Shown: positions 1-19,607 of the stretch, piece by piece
How positions within the stretch are numbered: position 1 is the stretch's first letter
Layout: every line of letters starts with the position of its first letter
Assembly: GCA_025363505.1 (NCBI GenBank)
Contig: JANYDV010000019.1
Location: 1-39,746 of the forward strand
Direction of reading: 5' to 3'
Source of the DNA: Bacteroidota bacterium
Lineage (GTDB): Bacteria; Bacteroidota; Ignavibacteria; Palsa-1295
Length of the DNA: 39,746 bases
Program-made: the position numbers and the translations under genes
Notes under the pieces: model-generated
Told to the model about the DNA's origin: nothing
Databases searched by the model: none
What the model saw: the letters and a program-made list of their open reading frames with translations, nothing else

Positions 1-1409
1 GACGCATTATCACTAATATCATCATTTACAGTAGCTAAATTATTTGCAAATAATGCACCAGAATTAGATATGCGTACTTTTTCATTTGTTGTATTACCTT
101 TTGCATTTGCTGCATTAACCATAATACGAAGTGTACCATTAAAATTACCAAAATCACCGGATTGCAAGTAGCAAGAACGCCATTCATTTGAATTTATGGC
201 TGCTGCTGGATCACTTGCGAACTCAAGTCGTGCAGGTTTAAAAGTACCACTTACACTTGACTGAATTCTTACCGTTGCCGGTTTAAAGCTACCCAGTCCT
301 AATACGGGTGTTGCGTTTACATGGAGAATTGATTTTGGCATAGTAGTCCCAATTCCAACGAAACCGTAATCATTGTTATCTCCAGCTATATTTTCTCCAG
401 CAATTATAGTCATAAGTATATTCCACGAATTATCATTGAAAAGTCCATTTGTATCACCATTTGGGTTTGTACAAGAACTAGTTGAATGACCAGCACCACT
501 AAAAGTAAATCCAAAGCATGGGTTACTTGAACCTGCTGAATATGTGGGAGTATTAGTAGTCATTGCAAATCGTAGTGCCCCACAACAACCATCTTGGAAC
601 TGGTAGGAATTATTTGCTTGACTAAATGCTCGTTCAGAAATAAATGCATTATGTAAAAATTCTGTTTGATAATCTTGACACACAGTAATTCCCCCAGAAT
701 AATTTTTATCCTGAAGCCACCCACCAGCTCCAGCCTGTGTTCCTATTCCAATTTTTTCAGTAGATGATGAAACATTTGATCGAGTGAGGCGCATATCGCC
801 ACCTGTAACATTAAATCTTGTAATAGGAGTGACCGTACCTATTCCTACATTTCCATTCGGAAGCATTGCACCAATATCCCGAGTCATTGTTGCATCACAA
901 CAATCCTCATGTCTAAAAACGAATTTTTCATCCGAGTTGTCACCCCAAACAAGATACGCATCATTAGCGTCCGTACTCCCGAGGTTTTTCATACCTAAAA
1001 ATACGGCATCAGTACTTTGACTAACTTTCAAACCATAGTAATTTGCATTATTAGGTTGCCATGATGGTGAAAGATTCGGTTTCCCGATTAACGACCATGT
1101 CGATCCTAAATCAGTGGCCCCGAATGTTCCGCTTTCTACCTGTCCAATCCTTCCTCCGGATACAATAAACAAATCATTTGGGGTTGAAGTCCCTACCCCA
1201 ACATTACCAGACGGGTCAATTCTCATACGTTCGACATTTGAAGTAATTAGTGGGAGAGGCAATGAATTTGTTGTCCCGAGAACATCACCAGATGATGAAG
1301 CATTGCCGGTTGTTAGCCATTGTGAATATGCTGCCTTAGAATGAATAGAAACTAAAACACATATAAAAAATACGAAGTGTATCCTAAAAATGACAGAATC
1401 TTTACGCAT
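1..1409 (-). CDS. Secreted/surface protein with tail-fibre-like 'GNVGIGT.TP...L.V' repeats (partial, C-terminus beyond left edge)
   Basis: Own translation of the minus strand from ATG at 1409: MRKDSVIFRIHFVFFICVLVSIHSKAAYSQWLTTGNASSSGDVLG...RMRIDPSGNVGVGTSTPNDLFIV...MLPNGNVGIGTVTPITRFNVTGGDMRL...YGFVGIGTTMPKSILHVNATP...EKVRISNSGALFANNLATVNDDISDNA. Open to position 1; signal-peptide-like N-terminus; absent from the ORF track because it has no stop in the window. Confidence 0.85.
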   Translation of the reverse strand, partial: MRKDSVIFRIHFVFFICVLVSIHSKAAYSQWLTTGNASSSGDVLGTTNSLPLPLITSNVERMRIDPSGNVGVGTSTPNDLFIVSGGRIGQVESGTFGATDLGSTWSLIGKPNLSPSWQPNNANYYGLKVSQSTDAVFLGMKNLGSTDANDAYLVWGDNSDEKFVFRHEDCCDATMTRDIGAMLPNGNVGIGTVTPITRFNVTGGDMRLTRSNVSSSTEKIGIGTQAGAGGWLQDKNYSGGITVCQDYQTEFLHNAFISERAFSQANNSYQFQDGCCGALRFAMTTNTPTYSAGSSNPCFGFTFSGAGHSTSSCTNPNGDTNGLFNDNSWNILMTIIAGENIAGDNNDYGFVGIGTTMPKSILHVNATPVLGLGSFKPATVRIQSSVSGTFKPARLEFASDPAAAINSNEWRSCYLQSGDFGNFNGTLRIMVNAANAKGNTTNEKVRISNSGALFANNLATVNDDISDNA

Positions 1410-1630: not shown

Positions 1631-2130
1631 TTAATTAGAGGCTACCCCACACCCCCGTTTTTTCGCTATTTTCATCAATTTTGTCATAGCACGTTGGTAT
1701 CTTTTCTCGATTGCTTTAGGGTTTTTCCCGCTTTGATAGGCAATTTCTATAAGTGTATATCCCTCAATCTGATTTTTCCAAATAATATCTTTTCTACTTC
1801 TGAAATCTCTTTTAGTAAAATTTGTAGTGTTTCGTACACAACAAGTTGTTCCGCATCATTATCTACTGAAGCAAAATCAACTCCATTTTCTTGAAGCATA
1901 TCGAGTGACCTTTTCCTTCGTTCTTTTTTTGATCTATTAAGCCAAAGATATTCCATGGTTTGGATAAACCAACTTCGTAAAGCAGGTTCTTCTATTTTTT
2001 CAAGTTCATCTAATTTTCCTAAGTAGATCATTGTTGCATCTTGCAGAAGATCATTTACTTGATCATTGCTAATGCTGGGGTGCTTCCTGCTAAACCAAAG
2101 CCTTGCATTTTGAATAAGTTTTTGTTTCAT
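1631..2130 (-). CDS. ECF-type RNA polymerase sigma factor, region 4 in the -1 frame (frameshift near 1773-1777)
   Basis: ORF 1747-2130 has region 2-like text (LLQDATMIYLGKLDELEKIEEPALRSWFIQTMEYLWLNRSKKERRKRS). The -1 frame continues as KNQIEGYTLIEIAYQSGKNPKAIEKRYQRAMTKLMKIAKKRGCGVASN*, a region-4 helix-turn-helix-like segment, to a stop at 1631-1633. Confidence 0.75.
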
Positions 2131-4715: not shown

Positions 4716-6150
4716 TTACAAGCGTTCTTTCAACGCTTCAAACATTGCTTTTGCCTTATCTCGTTGCACATAATGATCGACTATCGGAAACGGGTAGTCT
4801 TCGCCCAAAACACAACTATAGTTTGCTTGGTCGAGCGGGGTCATCAGATGAGGTTCGTGAAGAAATTTGATCGGCAGATTTTTTAGCTCAGGTACATATC
4901 GTTTAATGTATTCTCTATCGGGGTCGAAGCGTTTTGCTTGCAGATATGGATTAAAAATTCGGTAATATGGTTGTGCGTCGGTGCCGGTCGAAGCCGACCA
5001 TTGCCAGCCGCCGTTGTTTTGTGCAATATCGCCATCGGTAAGCCAGCGCATAAAATGTAATTCGCCTTCTTGCCAACTAATCAGCAAGTCTTTGGTCAGA
5101 AAACTTGCGACGATCATCCGTGCACGGTTATGCATCCAACCTGTTTCGATCAGTTCACGCATCGCCGCATCAATAATCGGCACACCCGTCTTACCTGATT
5201 TCCATGCTTCAAGAAAAATATCGTTTTGCTGCCACCGAATCCCATCATATTTTTTCTGAAATGCAGAGTATTCGACTTCTGGAAACGACATTAAAATATT
5301 ATAGTAGAACTCGCGCCAAAGCAATTCACTAAGGTAGGTGTTAGCGCCTTCGGAATAATCTACATCTTGCGAAAGCAATAATGCCTCACGGGCAAGTTTG
5401 CGAATCGAAATCGTCCCGAATCTTAAGTGTGGAGAGAGCTTTGAAGTGCCGCCACTCAAAGCAAGACCATCACGGTTGGCTTTGTAGTTTTTTATTCCCA
5501 ATTCTTTAAAGCTACCCCAGCTTTTTTGTGCTTCGATGCTTCCACCAATTTGCATTCTCTTCGGAGAATGTTGATTGTTCGAACGATGAAAGATCAGGCA
5601 GTGTATGGGTTTCAAGGGAGGCAATATTTTTTGTCGGCTTCAAATTGTTTGGACAGATCGTTTCGGCAGACTCGGCGGCAATTCTTTCCCAGACTGATTT
5701 TTTGAATGGCGTAAAAACAGTATACGGTTTCCCTTCTTTTGTTTTTACTTCGCCGCTATCGAAGAGCACGTTCTCTTTTATTTCAACGAATGCCACACCA
5801 AGCTCAGCAAGTATTTTTTTGCAATCGCGGTCGCGTTTGATTTCATGCGATTCATAATTACGGTCGATATACACTTCCGTTGCGCCAGTTTCTTTGATGA
5901 GCTTTGTAAGTTCATCGTTGACATTCCCATTACGAATGACCAGACGCGAACCAGCTTTCTCGAAGGCAGTGATTAACTCAGCGACCGATTCACTGATAAA
6001 CCCAAGTTGATTCGGAGATTGATTTGCACTAAGCACACTATCCCACAAATACAATGGTACGACTTGTTCGGACTCGTGTACTGCACGAGCGAGAACGTTG
6101 TTATCATCAAGACGAAGATTGCGACGGAGCCAAACGATAGATATACTCAT
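4716..6150 (-). pseudogene. phr: Deoxyribodipyrimidine photo-lyase (cryptochrome/photolyase family), interrupted by a one-nucleotide frame change
   Basis: ORF 5512-6150: MSISIVWLRRNLRLDDNNVLARA...PLYLWD...TKEGKPYTVFTPFKKSVW. ORF 4716-5624: SGGTSKLSPHLRFGTISIRKL...WREFYYNIL...GKTGVPIIDAAMRELIETGWMHNRARMIVASFLTKDLLISWQEGE...DGDIAQNNGGWQWSASTGTDAQPYYRIFNP. The two halves are adjacent in different frames. Confidence 0.85.
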
Positions 6151-15791: not shown

Positions 15792-18700
15792 TTATTTCGA
15801 CAAGTTCATCTTACGGGTCGCTGTGTAGGATCCGCTATTGATCTTGTAGAGGTACGAACCACTTGCGAGTTCGTTACCGGCATCGTCTTTCGCGTCAAAA
15901 TGAACGGTTGTAGTACCGGTCTTGACATAACCATCGACAAGCGTACGGACGACCTGACCAAGCGTGTTATAGATCACGAGTTTGGTTGGTGCGCCTTCAG
16001 GCAATGTGAAGCTGATGTCAGTTGACGGATTGAACGGATTCGGATAGTTCTGTTCCAACGTAAAGTTCGTTGGAGCACCGATCTCAACATTAACCGTATT
16101 GGTGACATGTTGGCTACCATCAAGATCCATCTGGGTCAAGCGATAGGTATATGTACCAGGTGTGACGTTGCGATCAACGAATGAATATCCGGTTTCGGTA
16201 TTAGAGTTAACCTTACCATTGACGAATGAAATCTTTTCGAAGAATCCGTCAGCTTGGTCAACACGGCGGCGTTCTACGAAGAAGCCTTGGTTGTTCTTTT
16301 CCTGAGCGGTAGCCCATGTGAGAACAGCTTTGCCGTTATCGTTTTTGCCATGCAAGTAAGTAAGCTCGACCGGCAAGATACCGGTTTGGCTAACCATTGT
16401 ACGAATCATAGGATTGTACGAACCTGCATTGTTCCAATAGAACGGTGCAAAGAATCCATCTCCGCAAGGATTACAGATATAAGTACCCCATGCGAGGTAG
16501 TTGCTGAATGCCGATGGATACATCGGAGGCCAGAAGCCGCTACCCGGTGTCCAAAGTGCCCAGTTACCACTGTTGGCAATATTTTCCATTGCATAGACGC
16601 AAGAGATATCACCAATGTTGAGATCCTGACCAATATTCGTTCCGAACGGATCACTATAGATCGGCGGAATGATTGGTACCTGTGGGCTTGTGACAACGAT
16701 ACGACCACCACCACGAGAGATATCAGCACCCATAAAGTAGTTGTTCAAAGACAACTGACTTACAGAAGCCCAATAAATACCAGGTGCCAATACGATCGGA
16801 GTTGGGAAGTAATACGGCCAGTATTGATCGAAGAGCTGACCTTTACGGGTCTCTGGGATCAATGCATTGAATACGGTATCCTGTCCTGGGATACAGCTTC
16901 CTTCTTTACCCTTGAAGATCGTCAAACGGATCGGATCATCTGCCTGGTTACCGGCTGCGAAGTATACGCGAAGACCATAGAGAGTATCTTTGGTGATCAA
17001 ACGGAACTTCATAGCCATACTACCAGAAAGATCATGATAACCAACACCACGTGACTGTTGCTGTGAAATGATTCTTGCAGAACCACTACCTGATGCAGTC
17101 AAATCAACAAGTGCTGTTCCAGGAGCGTCGTTGCTACCGTCATCATAAGCAAATTCTTGCGGTGATCCCGGCTGACCGGCATCAAGGAAGAAGTCTGTGT
17201 ATGTACCATTATCCTGTGTATAAGAATCATACGAAGATGTAGCAAGGAATGCATGGATACGGAACATACCGCCCGTACCGGCATTCTGAGCATTCCAAGC
17301 CGGCATCGTGATTGTTGTATCAGTACCTGCGCGGAGCGAGGTAACAGTCTGCAACGCCCAATACACCGTGTTTTGGTTCGGATCAAGGATCTGAACGCGA
17401 ACAGGGAATGCGATAGCCACATCAGAAGAATTATTTGCTAAGTGCACATAGACCGGAAGCGAAACCGCTTGTGACATTGGTAAATGTGTGTAAGGCGTGA
17501 CAGCGCGAACCCACATTACTTCAATCTCTGGTTTACGTGGTACTTGCAAAGAAAGATTATCGACGAACCATGCATCCGGATCATCATCCGGAGGATATGC
17601 GCCGTTATCGTTTGCCTTCAAGCGAAGACGGAAACGGAAATTATTCGTCAAATAAGTAAATGACGGAGTACTGAATGCATCGAGACGTACACTATAGTGC
17701 TGGAACTCGAAATCATTACCACCATCAATCTGACCAACTTGTACCCAACCACCCGCTGACGGGTTACAGGCAGGCTCAGCAGGTTTTTTGAATTCGATAA
17801 TCATTGAATCACCGGCACGAACTACTGAGTTGCTGGAGTTCAACATTGTTTTTTCCGCACCCTGAAGTACGTTTCCATCCCAATAGAGTGGGAAGTTGAT
17901 CTTACCGGTTCTCTGATAATCAAAAGCAACAGAGCCTTTGGTCTGACCACCGATATTGAACGGGAAGCTGATGAGTGTATCACCGGTACGTGTACCGCTG
18001 TAAATATTACCAGCTTGATCAAGACGATCGAACATAATCACAGGATCCAACATTTGGTTGGTTCCTACGCCGCTACCTGCTTCATAACGTGGTGGTGGCG
18101 GATCAAAAGTATTAATATCACCTTCTTCTACGGTCGGTCCGATAGCAACCCACTTCGTTTGGTCAGGAAGTGCAAAGTTGATCGTTGCAGCGTAGTTATC
18201 TGAAGGATCGTTAAACGGAAGTGCTGTTGTACGAATACCGAATACACGAATACAAACGGTATCGTCAAAAGGCCAACGGTCACCGATATAGTTATCGTTA
18301 CCATCATAGCTCGTAGCAACTGCGCAAGCATTGAAGGTTCCGAGCTGGTTCAAGATGTTCGGGTTGGTTGCATAGGTAGCAAAATCACCCGTTGCAGTTG
18401 AAACCTGACCTGAAGGTAATACACTATTAAGGGTAAACACACGACCATATACAGCAACGCCTGTTACAACGTTACGAATCTGGAATTTCACTTTGAACGT
18501 TTGCGTGTTCAAACTGACGTTCTTGTATGTTGCCTTCGGAGCGACTGTTGTTCCGAGACAGATCTCGTAGTTACGTGTCGGGAAATCAACTGAGATAGCG
18601 CGAACAATGTTTTTCCAACGAACAAGCTTTACAGCATACTGTCCGCCTTGTTTGAAATCTTTGTTACAAATCTTACAATTGATATTCGATGTTGCATCCC

Positions 18701-19607
18701 AACGACCTTTACCAGAATGGGTTCCGGTATTGACCGATGTGAATTCTGCACGGGTCTCATTCATTACACCGATTGTTGAGTTGCGCTGGAATACACGAGC
18801 AGCAGTAACAACAGGCAATGTAAAGATCTGACCGGCGAACGGACCATAGTTGATCTGAACGCTTGAGTCAGTACGAGTAAATACGACCTGCATCTTTTGG
18901 ATGAACAGAGCATCTCTACCACGACCGTTTTCGATGAAGTTCTGATGACCAGATAACGTGCTCATACGTAAATTATAAAAATTTACATAGAATGTATCAA
19001 GCGCAGGGCTGGTACGAACGTAGACTTTTGTTGAGTCATTGCCGGTGACGAATGCAAGATCAGCAAACATTGCAGCAATGATACCTTGAGGAACTCCGCT
19101 CGGCGTATTCTTCATATCAGCGATCGGAGACTGTTTATTCGGCTGTGAATATAACGGTGGCGAACCGGCTAAGCCTTCAGAACGTGGACGGAACCCAAGA
19201 TACCCATTTGAAGAAATGGTGACCGAGTCATAATTTTGACTAAAGAAATTAAAGGTAAATCCGATAGGAAGCGGACCTGCCAAGCAATTGTCAATAGTAT
19301 CCATCGTGTTGAGATTCGCGACTTGATCCGGACGATAGAAGAAATAATTCTGTTCGCCTGGAGCAGAGAACTGACGCGGACCGCTTCTGACACGATGCCA
19401 GAGGAAAGGTTGATACGAAGTATCAACAAAGTAATAGTTCGGGCGCCATGGCAATGGAGCGTCATCGTCCGTATCAACAGCATAGTAGCCTGTTGAAAGA
19501 ACGTTGGGCTCACCGCGGCGGCTTCCCTGCGCAAACGAACGATCTGCTCCGAAAAGCATTACGCTCACCAACGCCAGAAGTGCAAGAGATAGTAGCCGAT
19601 TTTTCAT
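15792..19607 (-). CDS. Large secreted protein with T9SS type A C-terminal sorting domain (1271 aa)
   Basis: Signal peptide MKNRLLSLALLALVSVMLFGADRSFAQ; C-terminal FTLEQNYPNPFNPSTDISFTLPEGAPTKLVIYNTLGQVVRTLVDGYVKTGTTTVHFDAKDDAGNELASGSYLYKINSGSYTATRKMNLSK. Confidence 0.88.
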   Translation of the reverse strand: MKNRLLSLALLALVSVMLFGADRSFAQGSRRGEPNVLSTGYYAVDTDDDAPLPWRPNYYFVDTSYQPFLWHRVRSGPRQFSAPGEQNYFFYRPDQVANLNTMDTIDNCLAGPLPIGFTFNFFSQNYDSVTISSNGYLGFRPRSEGLAGSPPLYSQPNKQSPIADMKNTPSGVPQGIIAAMFADLAFVTGNDSTKVYVRTSPALDTFYVNFYNLRMSTLSGHQNFIENGRGRDALFIQKMQVVFTRTDSSVQINYGPFAGQIFTLPVVTAARVFQRNSTIGVMNETRAEFTSVNTGTHSGKGRWDATSNINCKICNKDFKQGGQYAVKLVRWKNIVRAISVDFPTRNYEICLGTTVAPKATYKNVSLNTQTFKVKFQIRNVVTGVAVYGRVFTLNSVLPSGQVSTATGDFATYATNPNILNQLGTFNACAVATSYDGNDNYIGDRWPFDDTVCIRVFGIRTTALPFNDPSDNYAATINFALPDQTKWVAIGPTVEEGDINTFDPPPPRYEAGSGVGTNQMLDPVIMFDRLDQAGNIYSGTRTGDTLISFPFNIGGQTKGSVAFDYQRTGKINFPLYWDGNVLQGAEKTMLNSSNSVVRAGDSMIIEFKKPAEPACNPSAGGWVQVGQIDGGNDFEFQHYSVRLDAFSTPSFTYLTNNFRFRLRLKANDNGAYPPDDDPDAWFVDNLSLQVPRKPEIEVMWVRAVTPYTHLPMSQAVSLPVYVHLANNSSDVAIAFPVRVQILDPNQNTVYWALQTVTSLRAGTDTTITMPAWNAQNAGTGGMFRIHAFLATSSYDSYTQDNGTYTDFFLDAGQPGSPQEFAYDDGSNDAPGTALVDLTASGSGSARIISQQQSRGVGYHDLSGSMAMKFRLITKDTLYGLRVYFAAGNQADDPIRLTIFKGKEGSCIPGQDTVFNALIPETRKGQLFDQYWPYYFPTPIVLAPGIYWASVSQLSLNNYFMGADISRGGGRIVVTSPQVPIIPPIYSDPFGTNIGQDLNIGDISCVYAMENIANSGNWALWTPGSGFWPPMYPSAFSNYLAWGTYICNPCGDGFFAPFYWNNAGSYNPMIRTMVSQTGILPVELTYLHGKNDNGKAVLTWATAQEKNNQGFFVERRRVDQADGFFEKISFVNGKVNSNTETGYSFVDRNVTPGTYTYRLTQMDLDGSQHVTNTVNVEIGAPTNFTLEQNYPNPFNPSTDISFTLPEGAPTKLVIYNTLGQVVRTLVDGYVKTGTTTVHFDAKDDAGNELASGSYLYKINSGSYTATRKMNLSK

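Follow-up and report, generated by a model that had tools for sequence, protein, structure and literature searches.

The split sigma gene and its neighbours

The window, by which we mean the whole stretch of 39,746 nucleotides that was analysed, carries near its left end an ECF-type sigma-70 gene whose two recognisable regions lie in different frames of the minus strand. The features of this end are:

1747..2130, minus strand: zero-frame ORF of 127 aa, with ECF sigma region 2 and the linker, closed by TAG after a few out-of-frame codons
1634..1857, minus strand: -1 frame, about 74 codons open, with sigma region 4
1763..1798, minus strand: probable frame-change interval, in which joins after codons 111-122 are nearly equal; it holds GGAAAAATC at 1779-1771
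3..1409, minus strand: surface- or fibre-type protein with GNVGIGT repeats, which follows the sigma gene directly downstream and is truncated at the contig start
2208..3437, plus strand: NamZ exo-beta-N-acetylmuramidase, the first gene of the synteny with the same-genus genome G001 (G001:C7:168271 onwards)

The zero frame opens with ATG at 2130, and its product ends in ...ILFGKIRLRDIHL before the TAG at 1749-1747; regions 2 and 4 are not in one translated frame. The -1 frame is preceded by a stop at 1858, closed by TAA at 1633 and translated as ...WKNQIEGYTLIEIAYQSGKNPKAIEKRYQRAMTKLMKIAKKR.... Further stops are absent from either half, and sigma-like codons are kept in both. An A7 run, longer than the A5 run in the frame-change interval, is present elsewhere in the gene and stays in frame. 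Reading through both frames gives a protein of 166 aa without a region 3 and with normal ECF spacing. The first-pass annotation had placed the sigma gene upstream of the surface protein and on the same strand, which is the arrangement found, and the truncated product, of 127 aa with the core-binding and -10 region, lacks -35 recognition as it described. Such a product is presumably inactive.

Evidence for a single gene

The joined protein matched the TIGR02937 profile (sigma70-ECF) at 1.7e-10 over residues 12-154, with 40.8 bits, just short of the curated cut-off of 42.9. Presented with the separate pieces, the same profile matched region 4 at 0.0016 and did not match region 2. The Pfam profile Sigma70_r2 matched the zero-frame piece at 0.0067 (residues 21-72; 16.6 bits against a cut-off of 24), and Sigma70_r4_2 matched the -1-frame piece at 0.0003, also under its cut-off, in a segment that aligns with homologues. 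Region 2 is thus under the Pfam cut-off on its own, yet it is supported within the joined protein, while the -1 frame supplies the region 4 (-35 recognition) expected of an ECF sigma factor. PHROG 1740 (RNA polymerase sigma factor) matched the joined protein at 1.2e-10.

A leave-one-out profile was built from 13 relatives, with the window protein excluded. All its members are intact single ORFs except the split gene of G001 that is described below. Against it the best joined protein reached about 95 bits, compared with 55.5 for the zero frame and 5.0 for region 4 taken singly; the joined sequence had served as the query that retrieved the members, which makes these scores mildly circular. The log-odds of codon usage favoured frame 0 upstream and frame -1 downstream, with one switch around 1830-1780. 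Together, the scores of the joined protein and the single switch in coding potential show one gene with one frame change and not two chance ORFs. The split is confirmed as real in the sequence: both halves, their order and the single frame change proposed in the first-pass annotation are present, and the Pfam and TIGR02937 matches agree with its assignment of region 2 to the zero frame and a region-4-like segment to the -1 frame.

The exact base at which the frame changes is not pinned down, as joins after codons 111-122 all scored within about 4 bits of the best with the 13-member profile. The A5 run, which corresponds to codons 118-120, lies inside this interval and is not singled out by the profile, which weakens the arguments built on it.

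Relatives of the sigma gene and its genomic setting

The nearest homologues among 393 genomes of the class are intact single ORFs, mostly with 20-37% identity, too distant to test conservation of the break site. No close orthologue of the window sigma factor was found in these 393 genomes, nor in plasmid records or PDB sequences, and queries with both the window and the G001 sigma factors found none in the GTDB contig collection. A second copy of the window gene is absent from the assembly. The other strong region-4 matches in G000 are within long open frames, except for a lone region-4 ORF of 82 aa at G000:C149:13171-13278 (L029:1672-1779), which has no region 2 visible nearby and is followed by a secreted-type ORF. 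Short-frame sigma matches elsewhere in the family were discarded: those at G002:C141 and G005:C143 are cut by contig ends, and the remaining ones are weak helix-turn-helix matches.

Synteny of the window with G001:C7:168271-197761 begins at NamZ (2208) and extends to about 21 kb. It does not include the sigma and surface genes; different genes precede NamZ in G001, and neither the sigma nor the surface gene had a match in the compared G001 DNA. The GC content at the sigma/surface locus is 0.30-0.39, against about 0.44 elsewhere. Judged by position and composition, the pair is an accessory locus that was possibly acquired. The surface protein has no Pfam match, and short stretches of it resemble phage tail-fibre repeats. 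The neighbourhoods of its distant homologues showed no sigma gene within about 1.5 kb, for which reason a general sigma/surface-protein pairing was dropped; that the sigma factor regulates the surface protein next to it is hypothetical. Further into the window, 15795-19607 (minus strand) encodes a protein of 1271 aa with a C-terminal sorting domain (FlgD_ig / Por_Secre_tail). It has two tandem homologues in G001, with 76% and 53% identity, and tails of this type are common to dozens of proteins in each of the genomes G000 and G001.

A second broken gene at the contig end

Another, unrelated gene is broken 3 kb from the sigma gene:

4719..6150, minus strand: DNA photolyase encoded in two different frames, with the break at about 5563-5576

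Of the two pieces, 5515-6150 encodes the N-terminal photolyase domain and 4719-5624 the FAD domain. In G001 the orthologue (G001:C7:172373-173986) is a single ORF whose alignment spans the two, and the break site in the window has no homopolymer. The photolyase shows that indels arise in this part of the DNA where a recoding signal is absent. In a survey of frame breaks, 466 kb of G000 were compared with 942 kb of G001, and about 97 kb of G000 matched at a protein identity of at least 40%. In these roughly 97 kb no clear break other than that of the photolyase was found; the sigma gene has no counterpart in the comparison. Other candidates in G000 were rejected, as they looked like antisense shadow ORFs, with internal stops and poor identity, and the reverse comparison with G000 gave no clear frame breaks in G001.

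The first 6.2 kb at the left end of the contig thus hold two broken genes, with no other clear case in the compared DNA. Although the numbers are small, this fits a local error of assembly or strain mixture, or local decay. Because the photolyase is broken in another sequence context, ordinary indels or assembly errors are the better reading of the sigma split, an argument that rests on one event. The presence of at least two frame breaks at this end of the contig is useful as a warning.

A (TC)17-split sigma gene in G001

In G001 another ECF sigma gene is split at the corresponding place:

G001:C5:669,732-670,225 (L033:7733-8226), minus strand: ECF sigma gene split by (TC)17, with regions 2 and 4 each recognisable

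The tract lies between regions 2 and 4 and leaves both out of frame with each other. The joined protein matches TIGR02937 at 5.8e-12, over the cut-off, and downstream of the gene is a series of same-strand ORFs whose family is unknown. Among about 100 region-4 matches over the cut-off in four family genomes, no other sigma gene is split within a contig, and the (TC)17 tract is the only one of (TC)10 or longer in 13 family genomes. A similar repeat pattern, which misses tracts starting with C, gave 17 tracts in the 393 class genomes; only (TC)17 was seen in a sigma gene, the genes at the other tracts being identified by eye. Several of the 17 sit at the N-terminal end of proteins of secreted or sensor-like type. 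Tracts of (TC)n/(GA)n with 12-27 units were observed at or near ORF N-termini at L076, L079, L080, L081, L083 and L084 in other genomes of the class, and the genes concerned are possible cases of phase variation.

The (TC)17 sigma gene is a good candidate for phase variation. If it is phase-variable, the sigma factor would place an entire regulon under random on/off switching; a limited full-text search of the literature found no paper describing a phase-variable sigma factor. It is a different gene from that in the window and by itself no proof that the latter switches.

Cause of the frame change in the window gene

An ordinary single-base indel, either a true mutation or an assembly error, very probably accounts for the broken sigma frame. 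The first-pass annotation had rightly cautioned that an indel would look identical to a programmed shift, and the indel is now the favoured reading. The indel would lie between regions 2 and 4 of an ECF-type sigma-70 gene. It may be a real mutation in the sequenced population, giving an inactive allele or a young pseudogene; the alternative would be an error in the consensus close to where a draft contig ends. If the gene is a pseudogene, it must be very young, since both halves are free of stops and have kept sigma-like codons. Its low GC content and its absence from the syntenic place in G001 are as expected of a dispensable gene. As found, an accessory sigma gene that an indel has put out of frame carries little weight.

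A phase switch would have replication slippage in the A run turn the sigma factor on and off, with the assembled genome showing the OFF form. Neither half is damaged beyond the break itself, and the (TC)17-split ECF gene of G001, with its tract between regions 2 and 4, makes frame switching of sigma factors plausible in this lineage. The window gene, however, is at best a distant relative of that gene (33% over region 4), and a long simple repeat is absent from its frame change, where there is A5 only. Hypermutable homopolymers usually have about eight or more residues, and A5 is short for a phase-variable tract, whereas the longer A7 run of the same gene stays in frame. Homopolymers of eight or more are the class studied in PMC8538453. 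As the run is short and the break is not placed exactly at it, the earlier suggestion of a switch at A5 is weak, and we regard a phase switch as unlikely here. The broader proposition, that the genus switches its ECF sigma factors on and off through changes of frame that separate region 2 from region 4, (TC)17 being the clear case and the window gene a second case on a short run, and that a whole regulon including surface proteins would vary between cells, seems decidedly unlikely.

Programmed -1 ribosomal frameshifting on the AAA codon, which would yield a low level of the full sigma factor and the truncated form otherwise, is very unlikely. It is true, as the first-pass annotation held, that AAA re-pairs perfectly after a back-slip of one base, and the fused product retains normal ECF spacing; as an argument for a special site, though, the re-pairing loses its force, being a common property in this A-rich gene, in which 9 codons of the 127-codon ORF re-pair perfectly. 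No canonical heptamer X_XXY_YYZ was found in the overlap of the frames (1858-1747), and the sole heptamer of the gene, A_AAA_AAA at 1930-1924, would run into a -1 stop at 1879. No stimulatory structure was found in the 83 nt downstream, which fold no better than shuffled sequences in a model that leaves out pseudoknots (-9.4 vs -8.9 kcal/mol, z -0.19). A conserved split was not seen among the sigma homologues found, and a literature search found no paper devoted to programmed frameshifting of a sigma factor. With no heptamer in the overlap, no downstream structure and no conserved case among these distant homologues, the signals looked for in a programmed shift were not found.

A two-subunit sigma factor like SigO-RsoA of Bacillus subtilis, with region 2 and region 4 each produced as a protein of its own, would suit their different frames on the same strand but is hardly credible, as the nearest homologues are one-piece proteins and no ATG, GTG or TTG was found ahead of region 4 in the -1 frame (the first is at 1687, within region 4), which makes a separately produced region-4 subunit unlikely.

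Comparison with known systems

The joined gene shares with ECF (group 4) sigma-70 factors (TIGR02937 / Sigma70_r2 + Sigma70_r4_2) the order and spacing of the regions and the lack of region 3; it differs in not being one frame and in a TIGR02937 score just under the cut-off. With programmed -1 frameshifting as in dnaX and IS elements, it has the -1 direction and an A run in common, but not the heptamer or the stimulatory structure, and no conserved split was seen among the distant homologues found. Like genes that are phase-variable through repeat tracts, of which the (TC)17 ECF sigma gene may be an example, it changes frame between regions 2 and 4; unlike the (TC)17 gene, it has no long repeat, and its break is in or near A5. 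The likeness to frameshifted bacterial pseudogenes or inactive alleles comprises the single frame change, the truncated first ORF in an otherwise intact gene and the accessory, low-GC locus, whereas the window gene differs from frameshifted pseudogenes in showing no sign of further decay.
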